Assembly (NCBI RefSeq): GCF_001428805.1
Contig: NZ_LMIS01000001.1
Span: forward strand, 2,096,976 to 2,160,975
Direction of reading: 5' to 3'
DNA: 64,000 nucleotides
Origin: Aeromicrobium sp. Root236
GTDB taxonomy: Bacteria; Actinomycetota; Actinomycetes; Propionibacteriales; Nocardioidaceae
Part shown: in pieces, positions 2,068-45,465 of the stretch
How positions within the stretch are numbered: the first letter of the stretch is position 1
Layout: every line of letters starts with the position of its first letter
Program-made: the position numbers and the translations under genes
The notes under the pieces: generated by a model
What the model saw: the letters and a program-made list of their open reading frames with translations, nothing else
Databases searched by the model: none
What the model was told of the DNA's origin: nothing

Positions 2068-5000
2068 ATGACCACCACGTTGGTGAAGCGACCGGCACGT
2101 ATCGCGCCGCCGAGCACTGAGGGTTCCGCCCTCGCGATCGAGGCGCCACCCATGCGCGGACAGGCTGCTCCGGCGATGGCCGGCGCCAGCATGATGATGA
2201 TGCCGATCATGAGCGGCACGGGCTCCCTGACGGTCGCCATCACGCAGCAGGGCCGGCCGATCGTGGCGGTCGCCGCCCTGCTCGCGCTCGTCGGCTCGAT
2301 CGCGATCGGCGCCATGATGATGATCAGCCAGCGCAGCGGCTCCAAGCGGCAGGTACGCGAGGGCCGTGAACGCTACCTCGACTACGTCGAAGCGCTGCGC
2401 CACACGGTGCGCGACCAGATCGCCGGCCAGCGGGCCGAGCAGGCGTGGCGCTACCCGCGGACCGACGAGCTGCTCGACATCTGCCGCGACGACACCCGTC
2501 GGTGGGAGCGACGACCCTCGCACCTCGACTTCCTCTCGGTGCGTGTCGGCACCGGCGACGTTCCGCTCTCCACGGGCCTCAGCCTCGACGCCGACACCGG
2601 GCCGCTCAACGACTTCGACCCCGTGTGCCTGCAGGCGGCGCAGGAGCTGATCGAGCGCTACGCGATCCTGCGCGAGCAGCCCATCACCCTCAGCCTCACC
2701 GGGATCGGCCAGACCAGCGTCATCGGTCACGCCCCTCACCGCCGTGCCATCGCGACCAACATGGCGCTCCAGCTGGCGAGCCTGCACAGCCCCAACGACG
2801 TCGAGATCGCTCTCGTACGCTCTGACGCTGCCGCGGCGGCGTGGGACTGGCTCAAGTGGCTCCCCCACGCCCAGTCCGTCCACGTCCTCGACGGTGACCT
2901 GTCGGCACGTCGCGTGGAGGCCAGCGTCCCGGCGATGGCCGAGTTCCTCGCCCCTGAGCTCGAGGCACGCCTCGACCGCCTCCAGCGGTCCCGCGGCAGC
3001 GCCACGACCCCCACCTCGCACCTGGTCGTCATCGTCGACGGCGACGGACTGCAGCCGGGACACCACCTGGTCTCTCCCGACCCCCAGGTCTCGCTCGCGG
3101 CGCTGGGCGTCCACGTCATCTCGTTGCTCGACTCCGCACGCCAGGAGCCCGAGATCGTCGAGGAGCGCATCGAGATCGCCGATGACGGGTCCGCCGTCAT
3201 GACGTCCCGCCCCGCGCCGTTCCGGATCGACATCGCCCCGGACGGCGTCACGTCGGCCATCTCGCGGGTCCTCTCGTCGCTGCGGCTGACCGTCGAGGAC
3301 GTGGGCGATGACGGGCTCTCCGACACCGTCGGCCTGCCGGACATCCTGGGCGTCAAGGACCCGGCACACCTCGATCTCGAACGTTCCTGGCGCCCGCGTG
3401 CGCTGCGCGAGCTGCTGCGGGTGCCGATCGGCGTCGGCGCCACCGGCAAGACCGTGATGCTCGACCTCAAGGAGTCGGCACACGGGGGCATGGGCCCACA
3501 CGGACTCGTCGTCGGCGCCACCGGCTCCGGCAAGTCGGAGATGCTGCGTACGCTCGTCAGCTCGCTGGTCATCGGGCACGGGCCCGATCGGCTCGCCCTC
3601 ATGCTGGTCGACTTCAAGGGTGGTGCGACGTTCGCCGCCATGGAGGACATCCCGCACATCGCCGGCATGATCACCAACCTCCAGGACGACCTGACGCTGG
3701 TCGACCGCATGCGCGACGCCCTCTACGGCGAGATGCAGCGCCGCCAGGAGATCCTCAAGGACGCCGGCAACCTGCCCAACGTGACGGTCTACCAGGACCG
3801 GATCGACGCCGGCGAGCCGCTCGAACCGCTGCCGCACCTCCTCGTGATCGTCGACGAGTTCTCCGAGCTCCTGACCGCCAAGCCCGACTTCGCCGAGCTG
3901 TTCGTCGCGATCGGCCGCATCGGACGATCGATCGGCGTCCACCTGCTGCTGGCGACCCAGAAGCTGGAGATGGGCAAGATCCGCGGCCTGGAGTCGCACC
4001 TGTCCTACCGGATCGGCCTGCGTACGTTCTCCGAGGGCGAGAGCCGGGACGCGATCGGCGTGCCCGACGCCTATCACCTCCCACCGGAGCCGGGTTCGGG
4101 CTATCTCAAGGTCGACACCACGGTCTTCGACCGGTTCAAGGCGGCGCTCGTCTCGTCGCCCTACACCCCTCCGAGCGAAGGCCCCAAGACCACGGTGCCC
4201 GTCGTGCCGTACGTCGCGGTCAACGGGCTGGGCGCCTGGCTGGCGCAGCAGGTCGCCGCAGCAGACGGCGCCGACGACGCCTCAGAGCAGTCGGCGAGCG
4301 GGACGACGGTGCTCGACGTGCTGTGCCGTCAGATGGCGTCATCCGGCTACGCCCAGGTGCGTCCGGTCTGGCTCGACCCGCTGCCGGAGCGGCTTCCCCT
4401 CGGCAACCTCCTGGCGGACCGCAAGCCTGAGACGGGCACCCTCGACGCCGTGCTCGGGCTCGTGGACGACCCGACCCACCAGGCACAGTTCCCGCTGGTG
4501 TGGGACTTCACCGGCGCCCGCGCCAACATGCTGGTGATCGGCTCACCGGCCTCGGGCAAGAGTGTCCTCCTGGCGTCGATGATCACCTCCCTGTCGTGGT
4601 CGTACGCGCCCGGCGAGGTCGTCTTCTACTGCATCGACTACGGCGGAGGCGTGCTGCGCGGGCTCGAGGGTCTCGCACACGTCGCCTCGGTCGCCGGCCG
4701 CCTCGACGCCGAGCTGCGGTCACGCACCGTCAACGACGTACGTTCGCTGATCGACGAGCGCGAGCAGATGTTCCGGCTGCACGACATCGACTCGATGAGC
4801 GGCTGGCGGCGGGCTCGCGCCGAGGGCCGCCTGCCCGAGGACGTGCCGGGCGACGTGTTCCTGGTGATCGACGGCTGGGGCATCATCCGCGACGAGGACG
4901 ACGCGATGGACTGGGCCGTGGCCGACATCGCCGCGCGCGGCCCGGCATACGGCGTCCACGTCGTGCTGACCGCGACCCAGTCGATGCAGGTACGCATCCG

Positions 5001-13923: not shown

Positions 13924-13937
13924 GGGACCTTCGACCC
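13924..13937 (+). promoter_or_regulatory. candidate DevR box before the CoA-transferase gene (weak)
   Basis: GGGACCTTCGACCC matches 11 of 14 positions of the local consensus GGGACCWAGGTCCC and is centred 45 bases before the ATG at 13976. It is the weakest member of the series and may be chance. Confidence 0.35.
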
Positions 13938-13975
13938 TGTGTCTTGCGAACCCCGGCGCGTACGGTCGGGTGCCC

Positions 13976-15478
13976 ATGACCCGCGTGAGCTGTCCGACCC
14001 TTCGCAGCCTGATCACGACCGCAGACGAAGCCGCACTCCTCATCCATCCGGGCGACAACGTGGGCTTCAGCGGATTCACCGGTGCCGGTTGCCCGAAGGC
14101 CATCCCGACGGCACTGGCCGCCCGCATGACCGAGGCACACGACCGAGGTGACGCTTTCCAGATCGGGCTCTGGACCGGCGCGTCGACGGGGCCGGGGGCG
14201 GACGGTGTCCTCGCGGAGACGCACGGCATCTCGACCCGGCTGCCGTACAGCAGCGATCCGACGCTCCGTGCCCTGATCAACTCCGGTGAGGTCGACTACG
14301 TCGACGAGCACCTCAGTCATTCGGCCCAGCACATGTGGTTCGGGTTCTACGGTCACCTCGACCTCGCTGTCGTCGAGGTGACAGCGATCCTCCCCGACGG
14401 CCGCCTCGTCCCGAGCAGCTCGGTCGGCAACAACAAGACCTGGCTCGACCAGGCCGACCGGGTGATCCTCGAGGTCAACCACTGGCAGCCGCGAGAGCTC
14501 GAGGGCTTCCACGACGTCTACTACGGAACCGCCCTGCCGCCCGCGAGGCAGCCCATCCAGCTGACCGAGGCGATGCAACGCATCGGCGAGCCGTACCTCC
14601 GGGTCGACCCGGCCAAGGTCGTGGCTGTCGTCGAGACCGACCACCCGGACCGCAACGCGCCGTTCAGCGCGCCGGACGACACCTCTGCGTCCATCGCCGA
14701 CCACGTCCTGGACTTCCTGCGGCACGAGGTCTCAGCGGGACGCATGCCACCCGGCCTGCTGCCACTGCAGTCCGGGGTCGGGAACGTGGCGAACGCCGTC
14801 CTCGCCGGGCTGGGCGAGAGCGAGTTCTCCGGCCTGGTCGCGTTCACGGAGGTGATCCAGGACGGAATGCTCGACCTGCTCGACGACGGGACGCTGCGCG
14901 CTGCTTCGGCGACCTCGTTCGGGTTGTCGGATCGTGGTGTGAAGCGCTTCATGTCCGACATCGACAGCTACCGAGGCCGGATCCTGCTGCGGAGCGAGGA
15001 GATCTCGAACCATCCGGAGCTGATCCGCCGGCTCGGGGTGATCTCGATGAACGGGATGCTCGAGGCGGACATCTACGGAAACGTGAACTCGACCCATGTC
15101 ATGGGCAGCGCGATCATGAACGGCATCGGCGGGAGCGGAGACTTCGCGCGCAATGCCTTCCTCAACTTCTTCCTCAGCCGGTCGACGGCGAAGGGCGGAG
15201 CGATCTCCGCGATCGTCCCGATGGTCAGCCACGTCGACCACACCGAGCACGACGTGAACGTGATCGTGACCGAGCACGGCCTCGCGGACCTGCGCGGACT
15301 CTCGCCTCGCGCCCGCTGCCAGCGGATCATCCGGTGCGCGGACCCACGGTTCCGCGACGAGCTCACGGACTACACCGAACGCGCGTGGGCCGCCCATCCG
15401 TACGCCCGGCACACCCCTCACCTGCTGGCGGAAGCGCTGAGCTGGCACGAGCGATACCTCGACACGGGCCACATGTGA
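13976..15478 (+). CDS. acetyl-CoA hydrolase/transferase family protein (carboxylate-CoA transferase)
   Basis: 500 residues across the whole Cat1/AarC family. It shows the glycine-rich GFSGFTGAG region near residue 37 and FTEVIQDG with Glu292, aligning with the glutamate that forms the glutamyl-CoA intermediate in class I transferases such as succinyl-CoA:acetate CoA-transferase. The exact acyl donor and acceptor are unknown. ATG 13976 is used; a GTG two codons earlier is an alternative. There is no clear ribosome-binding site, and TACGGT lies about 9 bases before the ATG, so a very short or absent leader is possible. A weak DevR box lies upstream. It converges with the DoxX gene. Confidence 0.85.
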   Translation: MTRVSCPTLRSLITTADEAALLIHPGDNVGFSGFTGAGCPKAIPTALAARMTEAHDRGDAFQIGLWTGASTGPGADGVLAETHGISTRLPYSSDPTLRALINSGEVDYVDEHLSHSAQHMWFGFYGHLDLAVVEVTAILPDGRLVPSSSVGNNKTWLDQADRVILEVNHWQPRELEGFHDVYYGTALPPARQPIQLTEAMQRIGEPYLRVDPAKVVAVVETDHPDRNAPFSAPDDTSASIADHVLDFLRHEVSAGRMPPGLLPLQSGVGNVANAVLAGLGESEFSGLVAFTEVIQDGMLDLLDDGTLRAASATSFGLSDRGVKRFMSDIDSYRGRILLRSEEISNHPELIRRLGVISMNGMLEADIYGNVNSTHVMGSAIMNGIGGSGDFARNAFLNFFLSRSTAKGGAISAIVPMVSHVDHTEHDVNVIVTEHGLADLRGLSPRARCQRIIRCADPRFRDELTDYTERAWAAHPYARHTPHLLAEALSWHERYLDTGHM

Positions 15479-15521
15479 CGCAGCGATGGCCCGGCGTCCC
15501 GAGGGCCGCCGGACCATGCAA

Positions 15522-15545
15522 CCGCTGAGCTCCCTCTCTCAGCGG
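15522..15545. terminator. small hairpin between the CoA-transferase and DoxX genes
   Basis: CCGCTGAG and its complement CTCAGCGG (15522-15529 and 15538-15545) flank an 8-base pyrimidine loop; the right arm overlaps the stop codon of the convergent DoxX gene. It could end transcription from the left. Confidence 0.5.
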
Positions 15546-16081
15546 AGGACCGCGTTGTCCTTGACGACCGGAAGCTTCTCCCAGATCTTGCCGAGCCCCA
15601 GGGTGCGGCCCGCGCTCGCCATCGCCAGCACGGCAAGGACCATGGCGTAGATCAGGTGGTCATCGAGAAAGAGGTTGTTCTCCGGGGGCAGGACCGCGGT
15701 CCACATCAGCACCAGGAGCAGTGCACCGGCCGCGGCGGCGATGCGGACCGCAACACCGAGGATCAGCGCCGTGCCGATGCCGAGCAGGCCGAGCATGAAG
15801 AGCCAGTCGGCCCACGCATGTCCGGCGAAGCTCTGGTAGGTGTCGGAGAACGGACCCTTGGTGGCGTGGCCGAGGAAGCCGGCTGTGGGACTGCCGCCGT
15901 TGACCCACGCGTCGGCGGAAGCCGTCTCGTGACCCAGGCCGAAGGTCTTGTCCAGGAAGGGCCACAGGAACGTCCAGCCCATCGCGAGTCGGATCACGCC
16001 GAGGACCAGCGACATCGGCGCCGTCCGCTCCGCAGTGACAGGGATGGCCTTGGCGTGATGGGCGGCAAATGTGGCGGTCAT
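15539..16081 (-). CDS. DoxX-family membrane protein
   Basis: 180 residues with four hydrophobic helices. The first carries the DoxX-type RLAMGWTFLWPFLDKTFGLG pattern and there is an insert of about 35 residues before helix 2. Members of this family are linked to respiratory redox reactions (DoxD/DoxX with thiosulfate:quinone oxidoreductase, MtDoxX with superoxide dismutase), but no activity can be assigned here. GAGGAG lies 8 bases before the ATG; an upstream open extension is rejected because it would read through the regulatory region. DevR-like boxes at 16166 and 16202 lie in the shared promoter region with the divergent split-barrel gene. Confidence 0.8.
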   Translation of the reverse strand: MTATFAAHHAKAIPVTAERTAPMSLVLGVIRLAMGWTFLWPFLDKTFGLGHETASADAWVNGGSPTAGFLGHATKGPFSDTYQSFAGHAWADWLFMLGLLGIGTALILGVAVRIAAAAGALLLVLMWTAVLPPENNLFLDDHLIYAMVLAVLAMASAGRTLGLGKIWEKLPVVKDNAVLR

Positions 16082-16165
16082 GCTGACTCCTCGGTTGGGT
16101 GATGCGTTGCCTTCAGCATTCCCGGCGGACGCGCCGCAGGTCAGGGCCCTGCGTCCGCAATGGGC

Positions 16166-16179
16166 GGGCCCTAGGTCCG
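16166..16179. promoter_or_regulatory. DevR box 1 in the doxX / split-barrel divergent promoter
   Basis: GGGCCCTAGGTCCG matches 12 of 14 positions of GGGACCWAGGTCCC, with the central TAGG intact. It is centred 91 bases before the DoxX start; a poorer copy (10 of 14) lies at 16144-16157. Confidence 0.6.
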
Positions 16180-16201
16180 CAACGACCCACCGGGCCACGA
16201 C

Positions 16202-16215
16202 GGGACCAAGGTCCC
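16202..16215. promoter_or_regulatory. DevR box 2 in the doxX / split-barrel divergent promoter
   Basis: GGGACCAAGGTCCC fits the local consensus fully and extends by one symmetric base on each side (16201-16216). It sits midway between the divergent starts (112 bases to 16321, 127 to 16081). A related GGGCACCTTGCCC follows at 16224-16236. Confidence 0.75.
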
Positions 16216-16320
16216 GGGTTGCCGGGCACCTTGCCCGTGGCCGGACGCGGCACCGGGTGGCAGCGTCGACACCGGAGACAACCGAGCTCCGAAGCATCCG
16301 GCAAGGCGAAGGGACCTCCC

Positions 16321-16752
16321 ATGACGACGCTGAGATCCGACAGCTCGCGATCGCTGGTGAGCCTCACGGGCCAGGAGTGCCTCGAGCTCCTCGGCACCAC
16401 GACAGTGGGGCACCTCGCGTTCGTCGATCACGAGGGGCAACAGCTGATCCCGGCGAACTACGCCGTGCTCGACGGTGCGATCTACCTCCGTACTGCACCT
16501 GGAGGGATCCTCGCGCAGCTCATGCACGGGCACCCGGACGTGGCCTTTGGCATTGAGCACCAGGACGAGTTCCGCCGCGGCTGGAACGTCACGGCGCGCG
16601 GCCCGGCCGCCGGCGTGGAGGATAGGGCCACCATCAACCGCGTCCTGGGGCACAGGCGGCTCCGGCCGTGGGCCGGCGGCGTGCGTCCCCTCGTCATCAG
16701 GGTGACCCCGTTGTCCCTGGCAGGTCGCCGCGTCAGCGGCAACACCAACTGA
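16321..16752 (+). CDS. pyridoxamine 5'-phosphate oxidase-like flavin split-barrel protein
   Basis: 143 residues matching the short one-domain PPOX family: CLELLGTTTVGHLAFVDHEG at the start, a beta-barrel core with PANYAVLDGAIYLRT, and FGIEHQDEFRRGWNVTARG with the conserved GW-V-G pattern. Such proteins bind FMN, F420 or heme degradation intermediates and are frequent members of the mycobacterial DosR regulon; the cofactor here is unknown. AAGGGA lies about 7 bases before the ATG. It is divergent from DoxX with DevR-like boxes between. Confidence 0.85.
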   Translation: MTTLRSDSSRSLVSLTGQECLELLGTTTVGHLAFVDHEGQQLIPANYAVLDGAIYLRTAPGGILAQLMHGHPDVAFGIEHQDEFRRGWNVTARGPAAGVEDRATINRVLGHRRLRPWAGGVRPLVIRVTPLSLAGRRVSGNTN

Positions 16753-16793
16753 GCGACGGTCACCCGCCTGTCAGATGCTCGCCACCGCCGCAG

Positions 16794-17321
16794 CTATCCG
16801 GCCGCACGGTCCGGGACGACCATGAGCTGGTCGGCGATGTGCCGCGCCCATGCGTCGACCTGGTCCCAGTCGCGGTGATCGCCGGGAAGGGCATGCACAG
16901 CCTTGATGGCCGTCCGCTCGACCCAGCTGAGGTGCGTGGTGTCGAGGCGGCCTCCGAAGATCTTGTGCTCGACTGCCTGTCCGGATGTGACCATCGCATC
17001 CGCAGAGATGATCTGGGCGTTCTCACTCTCGACGTCGGATATCGGACCGGTGCTGAAGAGCCAGAGGTCGAACAGCGCGGCATCCTTCACGTACGTGAGG
17101 GCGCGCGCCGCGGAGTGCATCCAGTGGCTGAAGTAGATCGCGCTGCCGAGCACGACCGCATCGGCGTCGTCGAAGGCGCGAAGATCGCTCAGGTCCGACC
17201 GCACGACGTCCCACCCATCAGGGAGGGCTTCGGCCAGGGTCACGGCGAGGCGATCAGCGATCTCGCAGGTGCCGCCGTGCCGGCTGGCTGCGGCGACGAC
17301 CAACGAGCGGCAGGCTCGCAC
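16794..17321 (-). CDS. flavodoxin-domain protein (HemG/protoporphyrinogen oxidase-like)
   Basis: 175 residues. An N-terminal LVVAAASRHGGTCEIADRLA strand-loop-helix replaces the usual T-x-[ST]-x-x-G-x-T phosphate loop of flavodoxins, followed by AVVLGSAIYFSHWM, the second FMN loop with aromatic residues, and LWLFSTGPI. This fits the menaquinone-dependent protoporphyrinogen oxidase/flavodoxin family found in dormancy regulons. The GTG start (17321) is one base past the Usp stop, so it is the second gene of a Usp-flavodoxin operon driven from the DevR box at 18247. It converges with the split-barrel gene. Confidence 0.78.
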   Translation of the reverse strand: MRACRSLVVAAASRHGGTCEIADRLAVTLAEALPDGWDVVRSDLSDLRAFDDADAVVLGSAIYFSHWMHSAARALTYVKDAALFDLWLFSTGPISDVESENAQIISADAMVTSGQAVEHKIFGGRLDTTHLSWVERTAIKAVHALPGDHRDWDQVDAWARHIADQLMVVPDRAAG

Positions 17322-17322
17322 G

Positions 17323-18168
17323 TCAGGCTCCCCGGTAGTCGGACGGGACGATCGCGACCGGGCAACCGGCTCGCCGCAGCACCTGCATCGCGAGCGGCCG
17401 CGTCAGGGCGAACGAGAGGGTCCGGGAGTGCGGGCGACCCACGACCACGAGCTCGGCGTGTGCGCTGGCGGCGACGATGGCCTGCTCAGCACCGTCGACG
17501 ATGAAGGCGCGAATCACCCGGACGTCGGGGTACATCTCGCCCCAGCCGGCGAGCACCTCCGCGATGTTGGCGCGGATCGCCTCGGCGTCTGCTGCCAGCG
17601 TCGCCGGCGGGGTCGCGTGGAGCACGTGCAGCTCGTGCCCCCGCACCAGGGCCTGCTCGAAGGCGTACGTCAAGGGCCCGGTCGCGGACGTGTCGCCATC
17701 CAGCGTGACCACCACGCCACCTCGCGGCGGCGCCGGATAGGCGATCTCCGGGACCACGACGACGGGGCACGGCGCGTGCCGCGCCATGTGGCGGGCCACC
17801 CCGCCACCGAGCATCCGGTCGTACCACGGGATGTCGTCGGCTCCGATGACCAGCAGGTGTGCGTCGACGGTCGCGGCCTCGAGCGCCTCTACGACGGTGG
17901 AGGTTGACAGCTCGTACGCGATCGAGGGGACCGCGACCTCCTGGTCGAGGAGCTCCCGCGCGTCGTCGAGGACCTTCTGCCCTGCAGCGTGGAGGGCGTC
18001 GAGGTCGGCAGGGCTGAGGTAGGCGTTCACGCCCTGGAGCGGCACGCCAGCCGCGTGCACGACCAGCATCTCGACGTCGCTGCGTAGTGCCTCACGCAGC
18101 GCGAACCGGAGTGCCGTGGGCTGCTTGTCGGCGATGCCGATGACGACGGGCCTTCTCGGACTGTTCAT
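17323..18168 (-). CDS. tandem universal stress protein
   Basis: 281 residues with two Usp domains (about 8-140 and 150-280). The first ends with LVIGADD...LGGGVARHMARHAPCPVVVVP, and the second with VVGRPHS...CPVAIVP, the positions of the ATP-binding G-x2-G-x9-G loop; the second copy has lost most of its glycines, so at most one domain may bind ATP. AGGAGGAGAC sits directly before ATG 18168. It leads the operon with the flavodoxin gene and shares the 18169-18312 promoter region with divergent devS. Tandem Usp proteins are hallmark members of DosR regulons. Confidence 0.88.
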   Translation of the reverse strand: MNSPRRPVVIGIADKQPTALRFALREALRSDVEMLVVHAAGVPLQGVNAYLSPADLDALHAAGQKVLDDARELLDQEVAVPSIAYELSTSTVVEALEAATVDAHLLVIGADDIPWYDRMLGGGVARHMARHAPCPVVVVPEIAYPAPPRGGVVVTLDGDTSATGPLTYAFEQALVRGHELHVLHATPPATLAADAEAIRANIAEVLAGWGEMYPDVRVIRAFIVDGAEQAIVAASAHAELVVVGRPHSRTLSFALTRPLAMQVLRRAGCPVAIVPSDYRGA

Positions 18169-18246
18169 GTCTCCTCCTGGGCGGCTGGTCCTTCCACGAT
18201 CGCCGCAGAGGCCTCCCGACGGCATGGGCCACCGTCCACGGTCTGC

Positions 18247-18260
18247 AGGACCTAGGTCCC
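18247..18260. promoter_or_regulatory. DevR box between usp and devS
   Basis: AGGACCTAGGTCCC matches 13 of 14 positions of the local consensus. It is centred 85 bases before usp and 60 before devS, so it can serve both divergent promoters. Confidence 0.72.
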
Positions 18261-18312
18261 CGGCCCATACGCGCGTAGTGTGACGAGACACCCAGGTGCG
18301 ACCAGGAGTCTC

Positions 18313-19995
18313 ATGACCGACGAGCGCGCGACCGGCCCCACCCTCGACTTCGAGGCGGTGCTCGCCCAGTTCGTCGAGCGCGCGCAGCAGCTGATCGCCT
18401 CCCAGTCACGCCTGCGGGACCTGATCCGGGTCAACAACGACCTGACCAGCAAGCTCGACCTGCCGACCGTCCTCCACCGCATCGTCGAGATCGGCATGGA
18501 GCTCCTGAACGCCCGCTACGCCGCCATGGGTGTCATCGGTGACGAACGGCGCCTCGAGCAGTTCATCCACATCGGGATGGACCCGGACGTGATCGCGCAG
18601 ATCGACCACCTTCCCGAGGGCAAGGGCCTGCTGGGAGCCCTGATCGACGATCCGCACCCCGTGCGGTTGCGGAAGATCGCGGACGACGGTCGATCGAGTG
18701 GCTTCCCGGATCACCATCCACCCATGGAGAACTTCCTGGGGGTGCCGATCCGCGTACGAGACGAGGTCTACGGCAACCTCTACCTGACCGACAGCCTGAA
18801 CGGCGCGTTCTCGGCCGAGGACGAAGAGCTGGCGCAGGCGCTCGCGGCCACCGCGGGCATCGCCATCGAGAACGCGCGCCTGTTCGACGACTCGGCCTAC
18901 CGCGAACGCTGGTCGTCCGCTCTGGCGGACACCGCCCGTCGGCTCATGCGTGACGAGGAGGAGGAGGAACACCTCGGCGTCATAGTCGAGCAGGTCCAGA
19001 AGCTCGCCGAGGCCGACCTGGTCAGCATCGGCCGGATCACCCTGTCGGGCGACGAGATCTATGTCGATCGCGCGTCCGGGACCGGCGCGGACGACCTCAT
19101 GACGATGTCGTTCCCTCTTGAGGGCACGTTCGCCGGCGACGCCATCGCGTCGGGCGAGCCGATCCTGGTCAGCGAGTCGAGCGAGTTCCAGGCCCATGGC
19201 TTCGCGCAGCACGCCCTGCTGGGCAACTCGGTCGTCATCCCGTTCACCCACGGAGACGTTCCAGCAGGCGTGCTCACGCTCTCGCGTGCGGTCGGGCGAC
19301 CTCCGTTCAGCGTTCGCGACCTGGACATGGGCGCCTCGTTCGCGAGCCACATCAGCGTCGCGATCGACCGGGCCGAGTCACGGCGAGGGCGCCGCCGGGT
19401 GGCCCTGCTCGAGGACCGCAGCCGCATCGCGCGCGACCTCCACGACCACGTGATCCAGCGGCTGTTCGGGACCGGGCTCAGCCTGCAGGCCGCCGCTGCC
19501 GGCGCCGACCCCGAGACCGCCGGACGCATCACGGCGCAGATCACCGAGATCGACAGCGCCATCGCCCAGATCCGGCAGAGCATCTTCGCGATGCAACGAG
19601 ACCCCGAGACGACCACGGTGAGCCTTCGCGCCCGCATCCTCGAGATCATCGACCGGGTGTCCGACCAGCTCACGACCCGGCCGCGCGTGACGTTCCTGGG
19701 ACCCGTGGACCTGATGGTCTCCGGGGACCTCACCGATGACGTGGCGGCCGTCGTCACGGAGTCGCTCGCCAACGCCGTACGCCATGCCGGTCCCGCCCAG
19801 GTCTCGGTCACGATCGCCGCGGTGTCGGGCGAGATCAGCATCGAGGTCGTGGACGACGGCGTGGGACCGGGGTCATCGCCTCGGCTCAGCGGGCTGTCCA
19901 ACCTGCGCCAGCGGGCCGAGGCGCGCGGAGGTGAGTTCGAGATCCGCGCTGCCCCCGGAGGAGGTACGCGCGTCTCCTGGATCGTGCCGACCTGA
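18313..19995 (+). CDS. devS: DevS/DosS-type GAF sensor histidine kinase
   Basis: 560 residues: GAF-A (~55-195), GAF-B (~215-355), HisKA_3 dimerisation domain with RIARDLHDHVIQRLF (phospho-acceptor His377) and HATPase_c (~465-560, VVDDGVG and GLSNLRQRA). GAF-A keeps FPDHHPPM and GNLYLT: His135 and Tyr157 align, with the same spacing of 22, to heme ligand His149 and distal Tyr171 of Mycobacterium tuberculosis DosS, so a heme-based oxygen/NO/CO or redox sensor is likely. AGGAG 5 bases upstream fixes ATG 18313. It is convergent with devR (3 bases between stops) rather than in an operon with it. Confidence 0.9.
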   Translation: MTDERATGPTLDFEAVLAQFVERAQQLIASQSRLRDLIRVNNDLTSKLDLPTVLHRIVEIGMELLNARYAAMGVIGDERRLEQFIHIGMDPDVIAQIDHLPEGKGLLGALIDDPHPVRLRKIADDGRSSGFPDHHPPMENFLGVPIRVRDEVYGNLYLTDSLNGAFSAEDEELAQALAATAGIAIENARLFDDSAYRERWSSALADTARRLMRDEEEEEHLGVIVEQVQKLAEADLVSIGRITLSGDEIYVDRASGTGADDLMTMSFPLEGTFAGDAIASGEPILVSESSEFQAHGFAQHALLGNSVVIPFTHGDVPAGVLTLSRAVGRPPFSVRDLDMGASFASHISVAIDRAESRRGRRRVALLEDRSRIARDLHDHVIQRLFGTGLSLQAAAAGADPETAGRITAQITEIDSAIAQIRQSIFAMQRDPETTTVSLRARILEIIDRVSDQLTTRPRVTFLGPVDLMVSGDLTDDVAAVVTESLANAVRHAGPAQVSVTIAAVSGEISIEVVDDGVGPGSSPRLSGLSNLRQRAEARGGEFEIRAAPGGGTRVSWIVPT

Positions 19996-19998
19996 GGG

Positions 19999-20640
19999 TC
20001 AGCGGTCGTCGAGCAGCCTGCTGGCGAAGACCGCCGCCTGGGTCCGCCGCTCCAACCCGAGCTTCGACAGCACGTTGGACATGTAGTTCTTGATCGTCTT
20101 CTCGGCGAGGAACAGCCGCTCGCCGATCTGCCGGTTGGTCAGCCCTTCGGCGACGAGCTCGAGGATGCGTCGCTCCTGCGCCGTCAGGCTCTTGAGCTCG
20201 TCGGGTTCCTCCGGCGCGCCTTCTCGAAGACGTTCCATGACCTTCGCCGTCACGCTCGGGTCGAGGAGCGAGCCGCCGGTTGCGACATGACGAACCGCGG
20301 CGATCAGGTCCTGGCCGGTGACCTGCTTGAGGACGTATCCCGCGGCGCCGGCCATGATCGCGGCGAAGAGTGCCTCGTCGTCGTCGAACGACGTGAGGAT
20401 GATGGCCCTGGTCTCCGGATGCGCCGAGCGGATCTGGCGACAGACCTCGATGCCGCTGCCGTCCGGCAACCGCGCATCGAGCACGGCGACGTCAGGGGTG
20501 AGTGCCGGGATCCTGGCCAACGCGGCGCTGGCCGTCCCGGCCTCGCCGACCACCTCGATGTCGCCGCCGCTCTCGAGCAGCTGGCGGAGTCCCGTCCGGA
20601 CGACCTCGTGGTCATCCAGCAGGAAGACGCGGATCGTCAT
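19999..20640 (-). CDS. devR: DevR/DosR-type NarL/FixJ response regulator
   Basis: 213 residues. The receiver domain has acidic residues Asp9/Asp10, phospho-acceptor Asp55 (VAVLDARLPDG), and Lys105 in GYVLKQ. The LuxR-type helix-turn-helix reads LTAQERRILELVAEGLTNRQIGE and the recognition helix AEKTIKNYMS carries Lys181, Lys184 and Asn185, the residues that in DosR contact the GGGACT half-site. The protein aligns with M. tuberculosis DosR along its length, with FLAEKT and LERRTQAAVFA. It presumably binds the GGGACC/GGTCCC boxes around it. A box 62 bases before its own ATG suggests autoregulation. Confidence 0.92.
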   Translation of the reverse strand: MTIRVFLLDDHEVVRTGLRQLLESGGDIEVVGEAGTASAALARIPALTPDVAVLDARLPDGSGIEVCRQIRSAHPETRAIILTSFDDDEALFAAIMAGAAGYVLKQVTGQDLIAAVRHVATGGSLLDPSVTAKVMERLREGAPEEPDELKSLTAQERRILELVAEGLTNRQIGERLFLAEKTIKNYMSNVLSKLGLERRTQAAVFASRLLDDR

Positions 20641-20695
20641 CGATTCTCCTCGAGTGGCTGACCCTCAGTATTCGCCGGCTCCGGTGGAGTGTCGA

Positions 20696-20709
20696 GGGTC
20701 CAAGGTCCC
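20696..20709. promoter_or_regulatory. DevR box in the devR promoter
   Basis: GGGTCCAAGGTCCC differs from the consensus at one position and is centred 62 bases before the devR ATG, between devR and the end of adhP. Positive autoregulation is the expected reading. Confidence 0.68.
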
Positions 20710-20728
20710 GCGACCCCCCGTGGCCCGC

Positions 20729-21739
20729 TCAGAGCTCGAACACCAGGCGAGCCGCGATGCCGCCGGTCAGCAGCTCCGCGATCGCCTCGTTGACCTGGTC
20801 GAGCTTGCGGCCCTCGGCGATGACCCGTGTACGCCCACGCGCGTGCAGCGCGAAGACCTCGGTCAGGTCCTGGCGCGTGCCGACGATCGAGCCGATGATC
20901 TCGATGCCCTTGAGCACGGTGTCGAAGATCGGGATGCTCATGGTGCCGTCCGCCGGGAGCGCGACGCACACGAGTCGGCCACCCCGGCTCAACGACGCGA
21001 AGGCCTGCTCGAACGCCGACGGCGAGACCGCGTACGCCAGTGCGACATCTGCGCCGCCGAGTGCGGCGATCGCCGCGACGGGGTCCTCGGTCGCCGCGTT
21101 GACGACGTGGTCGGCCCCGAGTGCGGTGGCCAGCTCGAGCTTCTCGTCGTCGATGTCGACCGCGATCACGACGGCACCCACCAGGCGGGCGTACTGGACG
21201 GCCAGGTGGCCGAGGCCACCGATGCCGAAGACCGCGACGGTCTCGCCGGGCTGCACGTGCGCGACCTTGATCGACTTGTACGCCGTGAGGCCCGCGCAGC
21301 TGAGCGGGGCGGCGTCGAACGGCTCGACGCCCTCCGGCACGCGTACGGCGAAGTCGGCGTCGACGAGGGCGTACTCGGCGAACGCGCCGTCGATCGAGTA
21401 ACCACTGTTGAGCTGGCTCTCGCACAGCGTCTCGCGACCGTCGATGCAGTAGCGGCAGTGCCCACAGGCGTGGCCGAGCCAGGCGATCGAGACCCGGTCG
21501 CCGACCACGTGGGCGGTGACCTGTGCGCCGAGCTTCTCGACGATGCCGACGCCTTCGTGTCCGGGGACGAACGGCGGAATCGGCTTGACCGGCCAGTCAC
21601 CTTGGGCGGCATGGATGTCGGTGTGGCACAGGCCGCAGGCCTCGATGCGTACGAGGACCTCACCGATCCCTGGCTGTGGGACCGGACGTTCCTGGATCTC
21701 GAGGGGCTGGCCCAGGGCGGTGACAACGGCGGCTCTCAT
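20729..21739 (-). CDS. adhP: zinc-dependent alcohol dehydrogenase, AdhP type
   Basis: 336 residues, the exact length of Escherichia coli AdhP, with CGLCHTDIHAAQGDW and GHEGVG (catalytic zinc ligands), CGHCRYCIDGRETLC (the four structural-zinc cysteines) and the Rossmann motif GIGGLG, followed by IAVDIDD for NAD preference. It interconverts primary alcohols and aldehydes. GAGGAGTC precedes the ATG. A fully symmetric DevR box lies 94 bases upstream, so it is probably induced by low oxygen, when it could dispose of reducing equivalents. Confidence 0.92.
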   Translation of the reverse strand: MRAAVVTALGQPLEIQERPVPQPGIGEVLVRIEACGLCHTDIHAAQGDWPVKPIPPFVPGHEGVGIVEKLGAQVTAHVVGDRVSIAWLGHACGHCRYCIDGRETLCESQLNSGYSIDGAFAEYALVDADFAVRVPEGVEPFDAAPLSCAGLTAYKSIKVAHVQPGETVAVFGIGGLGHLAVQYARLVGAVVIAVDIDDEKLELATALGADHVVNAATEDPVAAIAALGGADVALAYAVSPSAFEQAFASLSRGGRLVCVALPADGTMSIPIFDTVLKGIEIIGSIVGTRQDLTEVFALHARGRTRVIAEGRKLDQVNEAIAELLTGGIAARLVFEL

Positions 21740-21821
21740 GACGACTCCTCGTGAGGTGGAAAGGGGGTTGCTCCCACCTCAGTCGGTGTCGTGGATCCGG
21801 CGTAGGGCACGTGCGCCCGGA

Positions 21822-21845
21822 TGTCAGGGACCTAGGTCCCTGACA
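21822..21845. promoter_or_regulatory. DevR box before adhP, a 24-base perfect palindrome
   Basis: The 14-base core GGGACCTAGGTCCC (21827-21840) is extended by five more symmetric bases on each side (TGTCA and its complement). The TAG stop codon of the upstream GNAT gene (21834-21832 on the minus strand) is the centre of the palindrome. A related near-palindrome GGGCACGTGCGCCC lies at 21805-21818. Confidence 0.82.
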
Positions 21846-22431
21846 CATCCATCAGGGCACGCGCATGCGCTGCGCAGCGGTGGCGGACGGACGAGGCCTC
21901 GACCACGGCAGGTGACGAGGCGGTGCTCATCCGGACCGACACCTCACCGTGGCTGGTGTGCAGGTCGATCGCGAATCCCGCGTCCGTGAAGACCGCCATC
22001 ATCGGATGGTTGATCGCCAGGACGTCGGCGACGAGCCACTGCACGCCGGCGGCTCGGGCCTCGTCCGCGATCCGTTCGAGGAGCAGCGTCGCGACGCCGA
22101 GGCCGTGTGCGTCGTCGGCCACGAGGAACGCGACCTCCGAGGTGATCTCGTCGCACGGCTCCACGTCGGCGACTCCGATCAACCGATCATCGACCTCGAC
22201 CAGGAACACCGCCGGCGCATCGAGCGGAGCGAAGAGATGGTCGAGGTGACTCGTCACGGCACCCCTTCCGCTCGTGAAGAAGCGGGTGTAGAGATTCGCC
22301 GCGCTCGTGCACGCGTACATGGCGGTGACGGCGGCCCGGTCCGCACGCGTCATGGGGCGGACGCAGGCCGCACGGCCGTCCGTGAGCAGCTCGAATCTCA
22401 GGGCGTCTCGATCGGGAGCGGTGGTCGGCAT
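21832..22431 (-). CDS. GNAT N-acetyltransferase (protein-acetyltransferase-like)
   Basis: 199 residues. Residues ~22-165 form a GNAT domain: RPMTRADRAAVTAMYACTS with LYTRFF at the start, as in the GNAT part of Pat-type protein acetyltransferases, and the acetyl-CoA loop DAHGLGVATLLLERI. A ~35-residue C-terminal tail rich in Ala/Arg is extra. The substrate is unknown, but cAMP- and stress-linked Pat enzymes acetylate acyl-CoA synthetases. A partial DevR box lies 42 bases upstream and its own stop codon sits inside the adhP operator, tying it to the regulon. Confidence 0.8.
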   Translation of the reverse strand: MPTTAPDRDALRFELLTDGRAACVRPMTRADRAAVTAMYACTSAANLYTRFFTSGRGAVTSHLDHLFAPLDAPAVFLVEVDDRLIGVADVEPCDEITSEVAFLVADDAHGLGVATLLLERIADEARAAGVQWLVADVLAINHPMMAVFTDAGFAIDLHTSHGEVSVRMSTASSPAVVEASSVRHRCAAHARALMDVSGT

Positions 22432-22466
22432 GACCCGAGTGTCCGGCCGAGCTCGTCGTGACGGCA

Positions 22467-22480
22467 GGGTCCAAGTGCCC
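22467..22480. promoter_or_regulatory. partial DevR box before the GNAT gene
   Basis: GGGTCCAAGTGCCC keeps the left half-site and centre, while the right half is GTGCCC instead of GGTCCC (10 of 14). It is centred 42 bases before the GNAT ATG. Confidence 0.5.
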
Positions 22481-22526: not shown

Positions 22527-22940
22527 CTAGTACCAGCTGATCAGCGGGTTGGTGATCGTGTAGGGCGCGAAGTCGCTGCCCAGGATGTAGAAGATGGCGA
22601 GCGCACCACCGGCGAGGGCGACGTCCTTGTTGAACTGGACCATCTCCATCATCTTGTTGGTCGCGTCGGTCTCCTTCCAGAACGCGTGCATCATGACGGC
22701 CGTGATGACCAGCAGGATCGCGATACCGAGAGCGCCGATGTCACCCCAGATGCCGAAGACGATCGACACGGCGCCGAGGATCATGGCCACGCCGCTGATC
22801 TGGACCATGAGCTTCGCGTTGGACAGCCCGCGCGACTCCGCGTAGCCGGTCATCGCCGCGGTCTGGGTCAGGTGGCCGATGCCCGATCCGACAAGCAGGT
22901 AGGCGAACAAGATGCGTCCGATGAGGAAGATTTCGTCCAT
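22527..22940 (-). CDS. DoxX-like membrane protein (second copy)
   Basis: 137 residues with four hydrophobic helices: RILFAYLLVGSGIGHLTQ, then MVQISGVAMILGAVSIVFG, IAILLVITAVMMHAFW and a last segment near residues 110-130. The helix-1 SGxGHL and the HAFW motif are typical of short DoxX proteins. Function unknown; possibly quinone- or redox-linked. GAGAGG precedes the ATG. It lacks an obvious DevR box upstream, so I place it outside the regulon despite its position. It is divergent from the next gene. Confidence 0.78.
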   Translation of the reverse strand: MDEIFLIGRILFAYLLVGSGIGHLTQTAAMTGYAESRGLSNAKLMVQISGVAMILGAVSIVFGIWGDIGALGIAILLVITAVMMHAFWKETDATNKMMEMVQFNKDVALAGGALAIFYILGSDFAPYTITNPLISWY

Positions 22941-23043
22941 GAGGTGCCTCTCAGATGGTTGAGCCGTCAATCGGGCAGTCTGGCCCTCCCTGCACGACGC
23001 GTCAAGGACCGGCTGACGCAGTGCGGTGTGGGAGGGTGGCTGC

Positions 23044-42739: not shown

Positions 42740-45465
42740 CGACCCTTCGCCTGTTCCGTACCCACCTCGCGCACCACGCGCGGGCCCTCTCGGTCCTCGC
42801 CACGATCGTCCTGGTGATGTCGACGCTCACCGCGTTGATGCCGCGGGCGACCAACCACCTGCTGACGGACGCCCTGCGACACCAGGTCGACGGCCTGGCC
42901 GTCGTCCAGCGGGACCTGTCCGCGAAGGAGCAGGGCACCCCGTCGCCGACCGCCGCCGACGACCCGGCCGGCAACGACCTCCCAAGCGCGTCGGACCCGG
43001 TCTGGGGCGGGCTCGACGACACGATGCGCGAGATCCGCTCCAAGATGCCACCGCTCATGAGGTCCACGTTCGGACCCGGGCGGTTCGCCATGACCTTGCC
43101 GACCGCGCCGGCATCGCCCGTCGACCCGGCCGTACGCACCAAGGCCAACACGGTGCTCAGCATCGGCTTCGACCCCTATCTCGCCGACGACGTCCGGATC
43201 ACCAAGGGTCACGCGCCCGCGGAGGTCACCGCGGACCAGCCCGCTGCGGGCCATCCGGTCGACGTCGTGCTGTCCGAGGCCGCAGCTGCGGCGATGCACT
43301 GGCCGGTCGGCCAGGTGCGGGTGAGCCGGGGCAGCGGTGCACCGCCGATCGACATCAGGCTCTCGGGCACGTACGCACCCAAGGACCGCACCGATGCCAT
43401 CTGGGCGCAGGTCTCCGGCACCTTGGTCCCCTCCGTCGTCGAGCCCGATGGCGGCAAGCCCATCGTGACGGCCGTCGGCTGGGCCGAACCCGGCTCGCTG
43501 CCCGAGCTCGTCTCGCTGAGCTCCAACGCCGTCCTGAGCGCGTGGTTCCCGCTCGACTCCTCCGCCCTGACGGCAGGCAACGCGCAGGCGTACGCGCTCC
43601 AGGTTCGTGAGTTCATCCGGCAGGCCTACCTGCTGCCCGGGGACGGCTACCTCGACGACGCCGAGGGCGAGCCGACGATCGTGGGCGCCACCGAGCTGGC
43701 CTTCAACTCCGACGTCCCCAGCGCGATCGACGAGGCCGACGCCGCCGACACGTCCGCCCTCGCGATGATCGCCCTGTTCGCATCCGGGCCGCTGGGCGTC
43801 GCCGCCGTCGTGCTGACACTGGCCGCCGGGCTCGTCCTGCGGCAGCAGCGCCGGCCCCTGGCTCTCATCGCGGCTCGTGGCATGTCGGCCACACAGCTGC
43901 GGGCACTGGTCGGCGTCGAGGGTCTCGTGTCAGGCGTGCCTGCGGCCGTCGTCGGCGCAGTCGTCGGCGCGGTGATCCTCCCGCATGACGGCAGCGCCGC
44001 CGCATGCTGGTGGCCCGCCCTCGTCGGGGTGGCACCCGCACTCCTGATGGCAGGCAGCTCGCCCGTCTCCGCCCGGTCCGAACGCGCGGACCTGTCGTCA
44101 GGCGGTGCCGGCTCACAGCAGTGGATCCTCGACGTGTTGGTCCTCCTCGGCGCCGCGGCCGCGATCGTCGCGCTGCGCCAGCGGGGCCTGGCCACCCCTG
44201 ACGGCGGCGTCGACCCGTTGCTCGCCGCCGCGCCCCTGCTGCTCAGCCTCGCGGCCTGCCTCCTCGTCATGCGGGCCTACCCCTGGGTGCTCAACCGCGT
44301 CCTGGCCCGCGCCGCGCGATGGCGGGGACCGACGGCACTGATCGGCACGGCCCGTGCCCTGCGCGACCCGGCCGCCGGGCTCGCCGCCGCCCTCGCCCTG
44401 GTCACCAGCGTCGGCATCGCGGTGTTCTCCGCCGTCTCCACAACGACGTTGCAGCACGGCCTCGAGGACGCCTCCAAGACTGCCGTCGGCGGCGACGTGG
44501 TCGTGCGCGGCCAACCGCTCAACCCCCGGATCCAGGCGACGCTGGCCGAACGTGCGGACGTACGCGCGGTGGCCGGGATCACCGAGCAACCCGGCGTGCC
44601 GTTGTTCGCCGACGACAAACCGGTCTTCTCGCGCGTGCTGTTCGTCGACGTCGCCGCGCTGCGCAAGGTCCAGAAGCACGTGCCGGGCCGCCTCGAGCTG
44701 CCGCCCTCGCTCGAACGAACCACGGGCGACCGCGCCTCGGTCCTGGTCTCCCAGGGCTTCAACAAGGCCCGGTCGAAGCTGAGGGTCGGCGACACCCAGG
44801 TCGATGTGGTGGGCACATCACCCGTGCCGTCGCCGCTCAGCACGTTGTCGACCTGGGTCCTCATGGATCGCTCGGTGGCCGAGCACTTCGGCCTCGACCC
44901 CGGCCCGCCGACCAGGCTCTTGGTCAGCACGACCGGTTCGGCCGCAGCGGTACGCGACGCGGTCCGCGCGCTCCCGGGTGACGCCGAGGCCGAGACGCCG
45001 GCCGACGTCGCCAACCGGATCGAGTACTCGCCGCTGGTGCCGGGCGTACGCCACGCCGCACAGATCGCCCTCGCCGCGCTGCTCATCATGTGCCTGGCGG
45101 TCATCGCACTGACCCTCGTACGCGGTGAGGCCAGCCGGTCGCGGCAGACCGCGCTGCTCGACGCGATGGGCGAGCCCCGGCGGCGCTCGCGTTGGCTCGT
45201 CGCCTGGGAGGTCGGGCCGCTCGCGCTCCTCGCAGTCACCTCCGGCGTGCTGTTCGGACTGCTGCTCCCCAAGGTCGTACTCGGCGCCATCGACCTGCGG
45301 GCGTTCACGACCGCCACCGTGCAGCCGACGATCCACATCGACCCGGTGGCGACACTCCTGATCGCGGCCGGCGTGCTCGCTGCCGTCGCGGTCGGCACGT
45401 TCCTGGCCGCCACGGCCACCCGACGGCAGGAGCTGTCCAGGCTCCTGCGGATGACGGAGGATTGA
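42736..45465 (+). CDS. FtsX/MacB-type ABC permease 2
   Basis: 909 residues. The N-terminal helix (~18-38) is followed by an extracytoplasmic domain (~40-350), a central membrane cluster (~355-570) and C-terminal FtsX helices (~770-900) with TALLDAMGEPRRRSRWLVAWEVGPLALL. The ATG overlaps the stop of permease 1 (ATGA) and has GGGAGG 4 bases upstream, so the two permeases are made together and probably form a heterodimer. It is clearly a different protein from permease 1 though of the same plan. Confidence 0.85.
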   Translation: MTTLRLFRTHLAHHARALSVLATIVLVMSTLTALMPRATNHLLTDALRHQVDGLAVVQRDLSAKEQGTPSPTAADDPAGNDLPSASDPVWGGLDDTMREIRSKMPPLMRSTFGPGRFAMTLPTAPASPVDPAVRTKANTVLSIGFDPYLADDVRITKGHAPAEVTADQPAAGHPVDVVLSEAAAAAMHWPVGQVRVSRGSGAPPIDIRLSGTYAPKDRTDAIWAQVSGTLVPSVVEPDGGKPIVTAVGWAEPGSLPELVSLSSNAVLSAWFPLDSSALTAGNAQAYALQVREFIRQAYLLPGDGYLDDAEGEPTIVGATELAFNSDVPSAIDEADAADTSALAMIALFASGPLGVAAVVLTLAAGLVLRQQRRPLALIAARGMSATQLRALVGVEGLVSGVPAAVVGAVVGAVILPHDGSAAACWWPALVGVAPALLMAGSSPVSARSERADLSSGGAGSQQWILDVLVLLGAAAAIVALRQRGLATPDGGVDPLLAAAPLLLSLAACLLVMRAYPWVLNRVLARAARWRGPTALIGTARALRDPAAGLAAALALVTSVGIAVFSAVSTTTLQHGLEDASKTAVGGDVVVRGQPLNPRIQATLAERADVRAVAGITEQPGVPLFADDKPVFSRVLFVDVAALRKVQKHVPGRLELPPSLERTTGDRASVLVSQGFNKARSKLRVGDTQVDVVGTSPVPSPLSTLSTWVLMDRSVAEHFGLDPGPPTRLLVSTTGSAAAVRDAVRALPGDAEAETPADVANRIEYSPLVPGVRHAAQIALAALLIMCLAVIALTLVRGEASRSRQTALLDAMGEPRRRSRWLVAWEVGPLALLAVTSGVLFGLLLPKVVLGAIDLRAFTTATVQPTIHIDPVATLLIAAGVLAAVAVGTFLAATATRRQELSRLLRMTED

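Follow-up and report, generated by a model that had tools for sequence, protein, structure and literature searches.

Does the DevS/DevR two-component pair of Aeromicrobium sp. Root236 head a regulon of its own and, if it does, which of the surrounding genes belong to it? The question is raised by an 8.6-kb region (positions 13924 to 22480) within a 64,000-nucleotide stretch, hereafter the window, that covers C1:2096976-2160975 of a 3,919,167-base, nearly complete Aeromicrobium chromosome (genome G000). An initial annotation of this region had listed seven sites fitting or approaching one 14-base palindrome and had proposed that they mark a DevR/DosR-type regulon with a box in front of devR itself. 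Our comparisons of the box, its positions and its conservation in close relatives, of its link to DevS, and of the contact residues and haem ligands indicate that the region very probably carries a compact, self-activating DevS/DevR regulon of the DosT/DosR type. The predicted regulon is of the known DosR/OsdR kind, in agreement with the annotation, and a motif search confined to relatives returned the same box.

The regulator and the sensor

The regulator gene devR (19999..20640, minus strand) encodes a NarL-type response regulator of the DosR type with a receiver domain (PF00072) and a LuxR-type helix-turn-helix domain (PF00196), and its best solved relative was DosR of Mycobacterium tuberculosis (3c3w, E-value 6.7e-72). 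The phospho-acceptor of DosR is Asp54, and D55 of the window's DevR aligns to it. K181, K184 and N185 fall on K179, K182 and N183 of DosR, named as its base contacts in the excerpt of PMC4082495, and the Lys, Lys and Asn contacts are therefore kept, as had been claimed. The recognition helix reads AEKTIKNY in the window's DevR and AEKTVKNY in DosR, and the stretch EKTxKN was found in all 33 DevR relatives compared.

The sensor gene devS (18313..19995, plus strand) encodes a kinase whose closest named counterpart is the DevS of Aeromicrobium ginsengisoli (94% identical). Its domains run as in the DosS/DosT sensors, a GAF-A domain with a proximal His and a distal Tyr being followed by GAF-B, HisKA_3 and HATPase. 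The best relatives of GAF-A were DosT and DevS, and alignment to the DosT and DosS GAF-A chains set H135 and Y157 on the haem ligand H149 and the distal Y171 of DosS. Among window-type DevS proteins the haem His was present in 23/23 and the distal Tyr in 22/23. At DosS positions 87, 90 and 169 the window's DevS has Gly, Gly and Asn, as DosT does; positions 89, 97 and 118 match neither protein. Since the haem ligands are in place and the protein has DosT-like residues, among them the Gly at position 87 that accompanied a stable oxy complex in published mutants (excerpt of PMC4082495), we predict that DevS is a DosT-like oxygen sensor.

Box sites in the window and the genome

All seven sites were present where the initial annotation had placed them, and its mismatch classes hold: against GGGACCWAGGTCCC, on the better strand, the sites at 16202 and 21827 are perfect, those at 18247 and 20696 have one mismatch, and the other three are weaker (two mismatches at 13924 and 16166, three at 22467). 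The highest-scoring site, GGGACCTAGGTCCC (21827..21840, score 23.1), is a perfect palindrome in the promoter of the alcohol dehydrogenase gene adhP (20729..21739, minus strand; NCBIfam AdhP, 370.1 bits against a cut-off of 344), about 94 bp 5' of the start codon. The box GGGACCAAGGTCCC (16202..16215, score 20.9) lies in the intergenic space between a gene for a 180-residue doxX-like membrane protein (15539..16081, minus strand) and one for a split-barrel, pyridoxamine-phosphate-oxidase-like protein (16321..16752, plus strand; PF12900, 68.2 bits), and a weaker second box, GGGCCCTAGGTCCG (16166..16179, score 12.6), lies 36 bp from it. The name doxX is that of the initial annotation; this protein gave no match in Pfam or NCBIfam, and its orthologues in relatives are 72–89% identical. 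The promoter region common to devS and the divergent gene of a double universal stress protein (usp; 17323..18168, minus strand; PF00582 in two stretches) holds AGGACCTAGGTCCC (18247..18260, score 19.8), and a flavodoxin-like gene (16794..17321, minus strand; PF12724, 54.1 bits) lies 3' of usp. Finally, GGGTCCAAGGTCCC (20696..20709, score 18.8) stands 5' of devR, as for autoregulation, and GGGACCTTCGACCC (13924..13937, score 17.2) stands at -39 of the gene for ScpC, a succinyl-CoA:acetate CoA-transferase (13976..15478, plus strand; NCBIfam ScpC, 710.6 bits against a cut-off of 500).

Six of the seven sites stand, namely 21827, 16202, 18247, 20696 and 13924, plus 16166 as the partner of 16202, and with them the placement before usp-flavodoxin, devR, adhP and doxX/split-barrel. 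The proposed membership of a GNAT gene does not: the box at 21827 abuts the 3' end of that gene, not its start, and the site claimed for it (22467..22480) scores 10.8 versus 17–23 for the five main sites. The window held 28 matches with three or fewer mismatches on both strands versus 13.3 +/- 4.35 in shuffled sequence (shuffle maximum 27; 0/100 shuffles reached 28), so chance alone should produce isolated three-mismatch sites like 22467.

For the strict form GGGACCWWGGTCCC the whole genome holds two perfect sites, both in the 8.6-kb region, and five one-mismatch sites, two of them there; a third one-mismatch site in the window, at 43417, is intragenic. The wider form GGGACSWWSGTCCC, with at most one mismatch, gave 21 sites genome-wide versus 6 for a reversed control. 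A simple codon-based gene caller put 14 of the 21 within genes and seven between genes, these being five in the 8.6-kb region, one beside a second devS gene and one at 2033458. The last lies about 0.2 kb 3' of a NarL-type regulator gene, and identical 16-mers, AGGGACCTTGGTCGCG, occur at 3733 and 2033458 (L003:1500 and L004:1500).

The genome-wide matrix scan that had been suggested was run through patterns in International Union of Pure and Applied Chemistry (IUPAC) code followed by matrix scoring, which ranked at least 111 sites; the best four among the 111 listed were 21827, 16202, 18247 and 20696, followed by a site beside the second devS, one at 1074763 and, in seventh place, 13924. The site at 1074763 (G000:C1; L195:4263) is intergenic, scores 16.5 and lies about 130 bp 5' of a large gene, a possible extra target that by its translation resembles a repeat-rich surface protein. 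Four other candidates were rejected, 2280498, 1745802 and 1745916 being intragenic by the gene caller and 841408 being flanked on both sides by gene ends. The other universal-stress-protein places of the genome, two at 634 kb and one at 3681 kb, were without a box, and a second DoxX gene in the window (22527-22943) was likewise boxless, its best site scoring -0.6 with the matrix from relatives.

The box in other Aeromicrobium genomes

Forty stretches around DevS-like genes were collected in the window's genome and in others of the genus. The training set for the motif was 37 promoters of other Aeromicrobium genomes (orthologues of usp, devR, adhP, doxX and the split-barrel gene), with the window left out. 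A de novo palindrome search of these promoters from 150 starts gave CGGGACCTAGGTCCCG with a log-likelihood of 204.5, versus 33.7–43.2 in 12 resampled sets with 60 starts each. A site of at least 13 bits was present in 32/37 promoters, the misses being three split-barrel and two devR promoters, and A at box position 4 has a frequency of 0.77 in the resulting matrix.

The usp box was found at -80 to -87 in all 12 relative loci having a usp of at least 49% identity, promoters that belonged to the training set. For adhP, a box of at least 16 at -82 to -94 was present in 7/9 genomes with a window-type DevS (own included, four of the boxed promoters being part of the training set) versus 0/3 without, a weak control since the three boxless adhP are only 53–56% identical, and without the own gene the contrast has a p of 0.06. 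One adhP orthologue (L234; G021:C1:2463170-2464174) has an internal TGA and no good upstream box, and gene and box are possibly decaying together.

The CoA-transferase promoters were outside the training set. A box of at least 13.7, a score reached in 2.1% of 3000 random 300-base pieces of the loci, preceded this gene in 5/14 genus genomes with DevS (own included; 13.7 at -38 in G013) versus 0/14 without (p 0.02, or 0.04 without the own gene), which lends moderate support to the gene as the possible member that the initial annotation had suggested. Upstream of doxX, double boxes 37–39 bp apart occur in L043, L124 and L263 and single sites of at least 13 in L298, L285 and L287; because such double boxes recur in relatives, 16166 is likely a second box despite its weak score alone.

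The box also follows the sensor across the genus. Of 49 genomes searched, our own included, 25 had a window-type DevS (cut at 46% identity), and, counted by hand, the strict form GGGACCWWGGTCCC occurred in 11/25 of these versus 1/24 of the rest (Fisher p 0.0012; 10/24 versus 1/24 without the own genome, p 0.0022), p values that are generous because the own genome was counted, the identity cut was chosen from these same data and the genomes share ancestry. Many of the 24 genomes without a window-type DevS carry DevS relatives of other types. Among 22 relative loci, the 12 with the closest DevS (64–94%) all had a box of at least 14.9 5' of devS. Strict boxes in relatives also stand 5' of glyA/mycothiol-S-transferase, sigma-factor-like, carboxypeptidase-regulatory-domain and metallophosphoesterase-like genes (L259, L262, L261 and L257, each at 1500), and in G011 a 20.8-bit box (L300:2783) lies directly 5' of a devR relative (68%) that is distant from that genome's devS.

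Promoter layout and proposed mechanism

When devR promoters were anchored on the box, ATACT followed 22–23 bases after it in 6/12, including the window's, where it lies 23 bases on; the proposed -10 element there is AATACT (20667..20672, minus strand), which would put the box centre near -42 of the inferred start. On the usp side, 13 promoters share, by eye, a CCgTG-like consensus at a fixed distance from the box. Because the box is followed at a fixed distance by a -10-like element (for devR, in six of the 12 species), we regard usp and devR as apparent direct targets whose box would lie near -42 of the inferred start. For adhP and doxX the position of the box suggests that they are targets. 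The site at 18247 is common to the divergent usp and devS genes, a detail that departs from the initial annotation. Given a -10-like element at variable distance, devS is perhaps not targeted directly and may have a promoter of its own.

We propose that in air the haem of the DevS GAF-A domain would hold oxygen and the kinase would be quiet, whereas in falling oxygen the haem would release it and DevS would phosphorylate D55 of DevR. Dimers of phosphorylated DevR would bind GGGAC-N4-GTCCC palindromes, best in the form GGGACCWWGGTCCC, and would overlap the -35 region where the box lies near -42. They would activate usp-flavodoxin and devR, likewise adhP and doxX/split-barrel, and probably the CoA-transferase gene. 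Of this scheme, we infer that DevR binds DNA, that it receives its phosphate from DevS, that it activates and does not repress, and that the signal is oxygen.

Relation to known DosR-type systems

The mycobacterial DosR box is GGGACTWWAGTCCC, and the initial annotation had held that the Aeromicrobium box has moved away from it. We found a GGGAC-N4-GTCCC palindrome before devR and the targets, with one mismatch at the devR and usp/devS sites, and the centres CTAG, CTTG, CTTC, CTTT and GTTC within the genus alongside identical contact residues. The similar CGGGACCTTGGTCCCT occurs in Acidimicrobiia loci titled Acidimicrobiaceae and Candidatus Microthrix, roughly 0.9 kb away from a DevR relative with 55% identity and the helix AEKTIKNY, and published OsdR sites include AGGGACCTTCGGCCCC, with its GGGACC (excerpt of PMC5069765). 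Since centres vary with the same contacts and these two outside boxes resemble ours, the box is better seen as not moved; its centre, judging from the sequences, is read loosely within a shared GGGAC-N4-GTCCC box. Drift through an altered helix was rejected, the contact residues being unchanged.

The pair thus resembles DosS/DosT-DosR of M. tuberculosis in its base-contact residues, its GAF-A haem ligands and its GGGAC...GTCCC palindrome, and a usp gene adjoins the pair in both (Rv3134c in M. tuberculosis; excerpt of PMC5069765). Unlike the M. tuberculosis system, that of Aeromicrobium has a box centre that is preferably CTAG, CTTG or CAAG, convergent devS and devR genes with separate promoters, and few strong boxes among the genome sites listed. 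Known DosR/DevR systems are further marked by haem binding and O2-dependent kinase activity of the sensor and by induction under hypoxia or nitric oxide, and the classical dormancy regulon by hspX, nitroreductase and nitrate-transport members; for Aeromicrobium the analysis covered the genes around the pair and the listed box sites. OsdK-OsdR of Streptomyces coelicolor is of the same sensor/regulator kind and, in the same excerpt of PMC5069765, has some boxes with GGGACCTTCGG and predicted targets (universal stress protein, alcohol dehydrogenase, pyridoxamine-phosphate oxidase) whose kinds overlap the window genes. The excerpt further gives OsdR a consensus of AGGGCCGATCGGCCCT, 43 predicted sites and a link to development; the best box in Aeromicrobium is a different one, GGGACCTAGGTCCC. 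Literature searches on Aeromicrobium DevR/DosR, or on hypoxia and two-component systems, gave nothing relevant among the matches listed.

Cytochrome bd and a possible metabolic role

In three relatives (G024, G036 and G041) a box, perfect in G041, lies between doxX and a divergent cydA. We examined 30 of 59 listed cydA places, plus those of G000 and G010, and a cydA subgroup 82–100% identical to the G041 protein, defined after the scores had been seen, had boxes of 19.5–21.8 in 5/5 loci versus 1/25 of the others (score 12.4; p 4e-5). These five loci are all in genomes with a window-type DevS; splitting all 30 by DevS presence gave 5/17 with versus 1/13 without (p 0.16), so the cydA box signal goes by subgroup. 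The cytochrome bd gene of G000 belongs to another subgroup and had no site of at least 13 in the 2 kb examined, and that of G010 was likewise without a box.

Because boxes precede one cytochrome bd subgroup, and because of the ScpC and AdhP assignments, the evidence favours a putative role in low-oxygen respiration and fermentation. More tentatively, and at somewhat less than an even chance, the Aeromicrobium DosR circuit might, instead of a dormancy programme, form a small switch for respiration and fermentation that takes in cytochrome bd with DoxX, ScpC and AdhP and is run by two DosT-like pairs sharing a DNA-reading helix, in which the window species lost the bd oxidase from under the box and the split-barrel gene replaced it.

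A second pair and alternative explanations

The genome encodes a second pair, DevS2-DevR2, at 2354.8-2357.0 kb (L122:9385-12084, that is, G000:C1:2354384-2357083; DevR2 at C1:2356415-2357029), with neighbours that read as peptide ABC transporter-like genes and then a glyA-like gene. DevR2 is 71% identical to the window's DevR with the same contact residues, and devS2 stands behind two boxes, GGGACGTTCGTCCC and GGGACTTAAGTCCC (scores 18.7 and 15.7). Both DevR paralogues might therefore serve one pooled set of boxes, the window regulon being half of a two-input circuit, which is quite conceivable although on balance we doubt it. The centres of the devS2 boxes, GTTC and TTAA, differ, and of the 14 system-2 sensors aligned (L122, L145-L156 and L161) seven (L150-L156) have another residue or a gap in place of the haem His, so that each pair may respond to a signal of its own, though our own DevS2 keeps this His. 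The distal Tyr is present in 14/14, and a change of signal within one sensor family is suggested by these alignments.

Several observations weigh against a DevS/DevR regulon as we have drawn it. DevR2 has identical contact residues and might recognise these boxes too. The wider form GGGACSWWSGTCCC is more weakly linked to the sensor (18/25 versus 10/24 genomes, p 0.03), and among the 10 more distant DevS loci (47–56%) only two have a box of at least 13 5' of devS, and seven lack any box across all 19 kb. In these seven (L135, L138-L142 and L144) no devR was found beside devS; six of the sensors keep the haem His, the distal Tyr and the Gly at DosS position 87, where L139 has Val, and the seven appear to be sensors without a local regulon. 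Six of 12 devR promoters lack ATACT after the box, and by eye the GTA-containing -10-like element on the devS side lies at a variable distance from it. Nine of the 14 DevS genomes have no CoA-transferase box, the nearest relative G010 gave no CoA-transferase match, and the adhP contrast has the weak control described above. Microlunatus belongs to the same order as Aeromicrobium. In M. phosphovorus the pair PolS-PolR, termed DevS/DevR-like by its authors, includes a regulator reported to bind GTTCACnnnnnGTTCaC, a GTTCAC direct repeat 5' of phosphate genes (excerpt of PMC6754071); this repeat is unlike the DevR boxes here.

The seven boxless distant loci, and the many response regulators of the genome (41 matches to DevR at an E-value of 0.001 or less), would also suit another palindrome regulator reading real boxes with devSR merely as a neighbour. 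We consider this very unlikely, given that strict boxes track the window-type DevS, that the GGGAC/GTCCC palindrome is that of the DosR/OsdR kind and that the DNA-contact residues are identical. Somewhat less remote, yet still improbable, is that DevR mainly represses, or that the pair answers redox or nitric oxide instead of oxygen. A case has been made for DosS as a redox sensor (excerpt of PMC4082495). Against it, the DosT-like Gly at position 87 went with a stable oxy complex in published mutants, although other laboratories disagree on DosS autooxidation (same excerpt), and the boxes 5' of cytochrome bd fit low oxygen. Chance clustering of a GC-rich palindrome would account for sites as weak as 22467. 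It is refuted for the five main sites, which are all intergenic and of a kind that the window-blind search recovered in relatives, and its probability is negligible.

A compact regulon under DevS/DevR would add Aeromicrobium to the bacteria with a DosR/OsdR oxygen-response system and would supply a box matrix ready for use, together with a short list of targets. Outside the mycobacteria, it would allow DosT-type sensing to be studied alongside a DosR-type regulon of very small size, and its two DevR paralogues, alike in the reading helix, would serve as a test case for the sharing or dividing of boxes.

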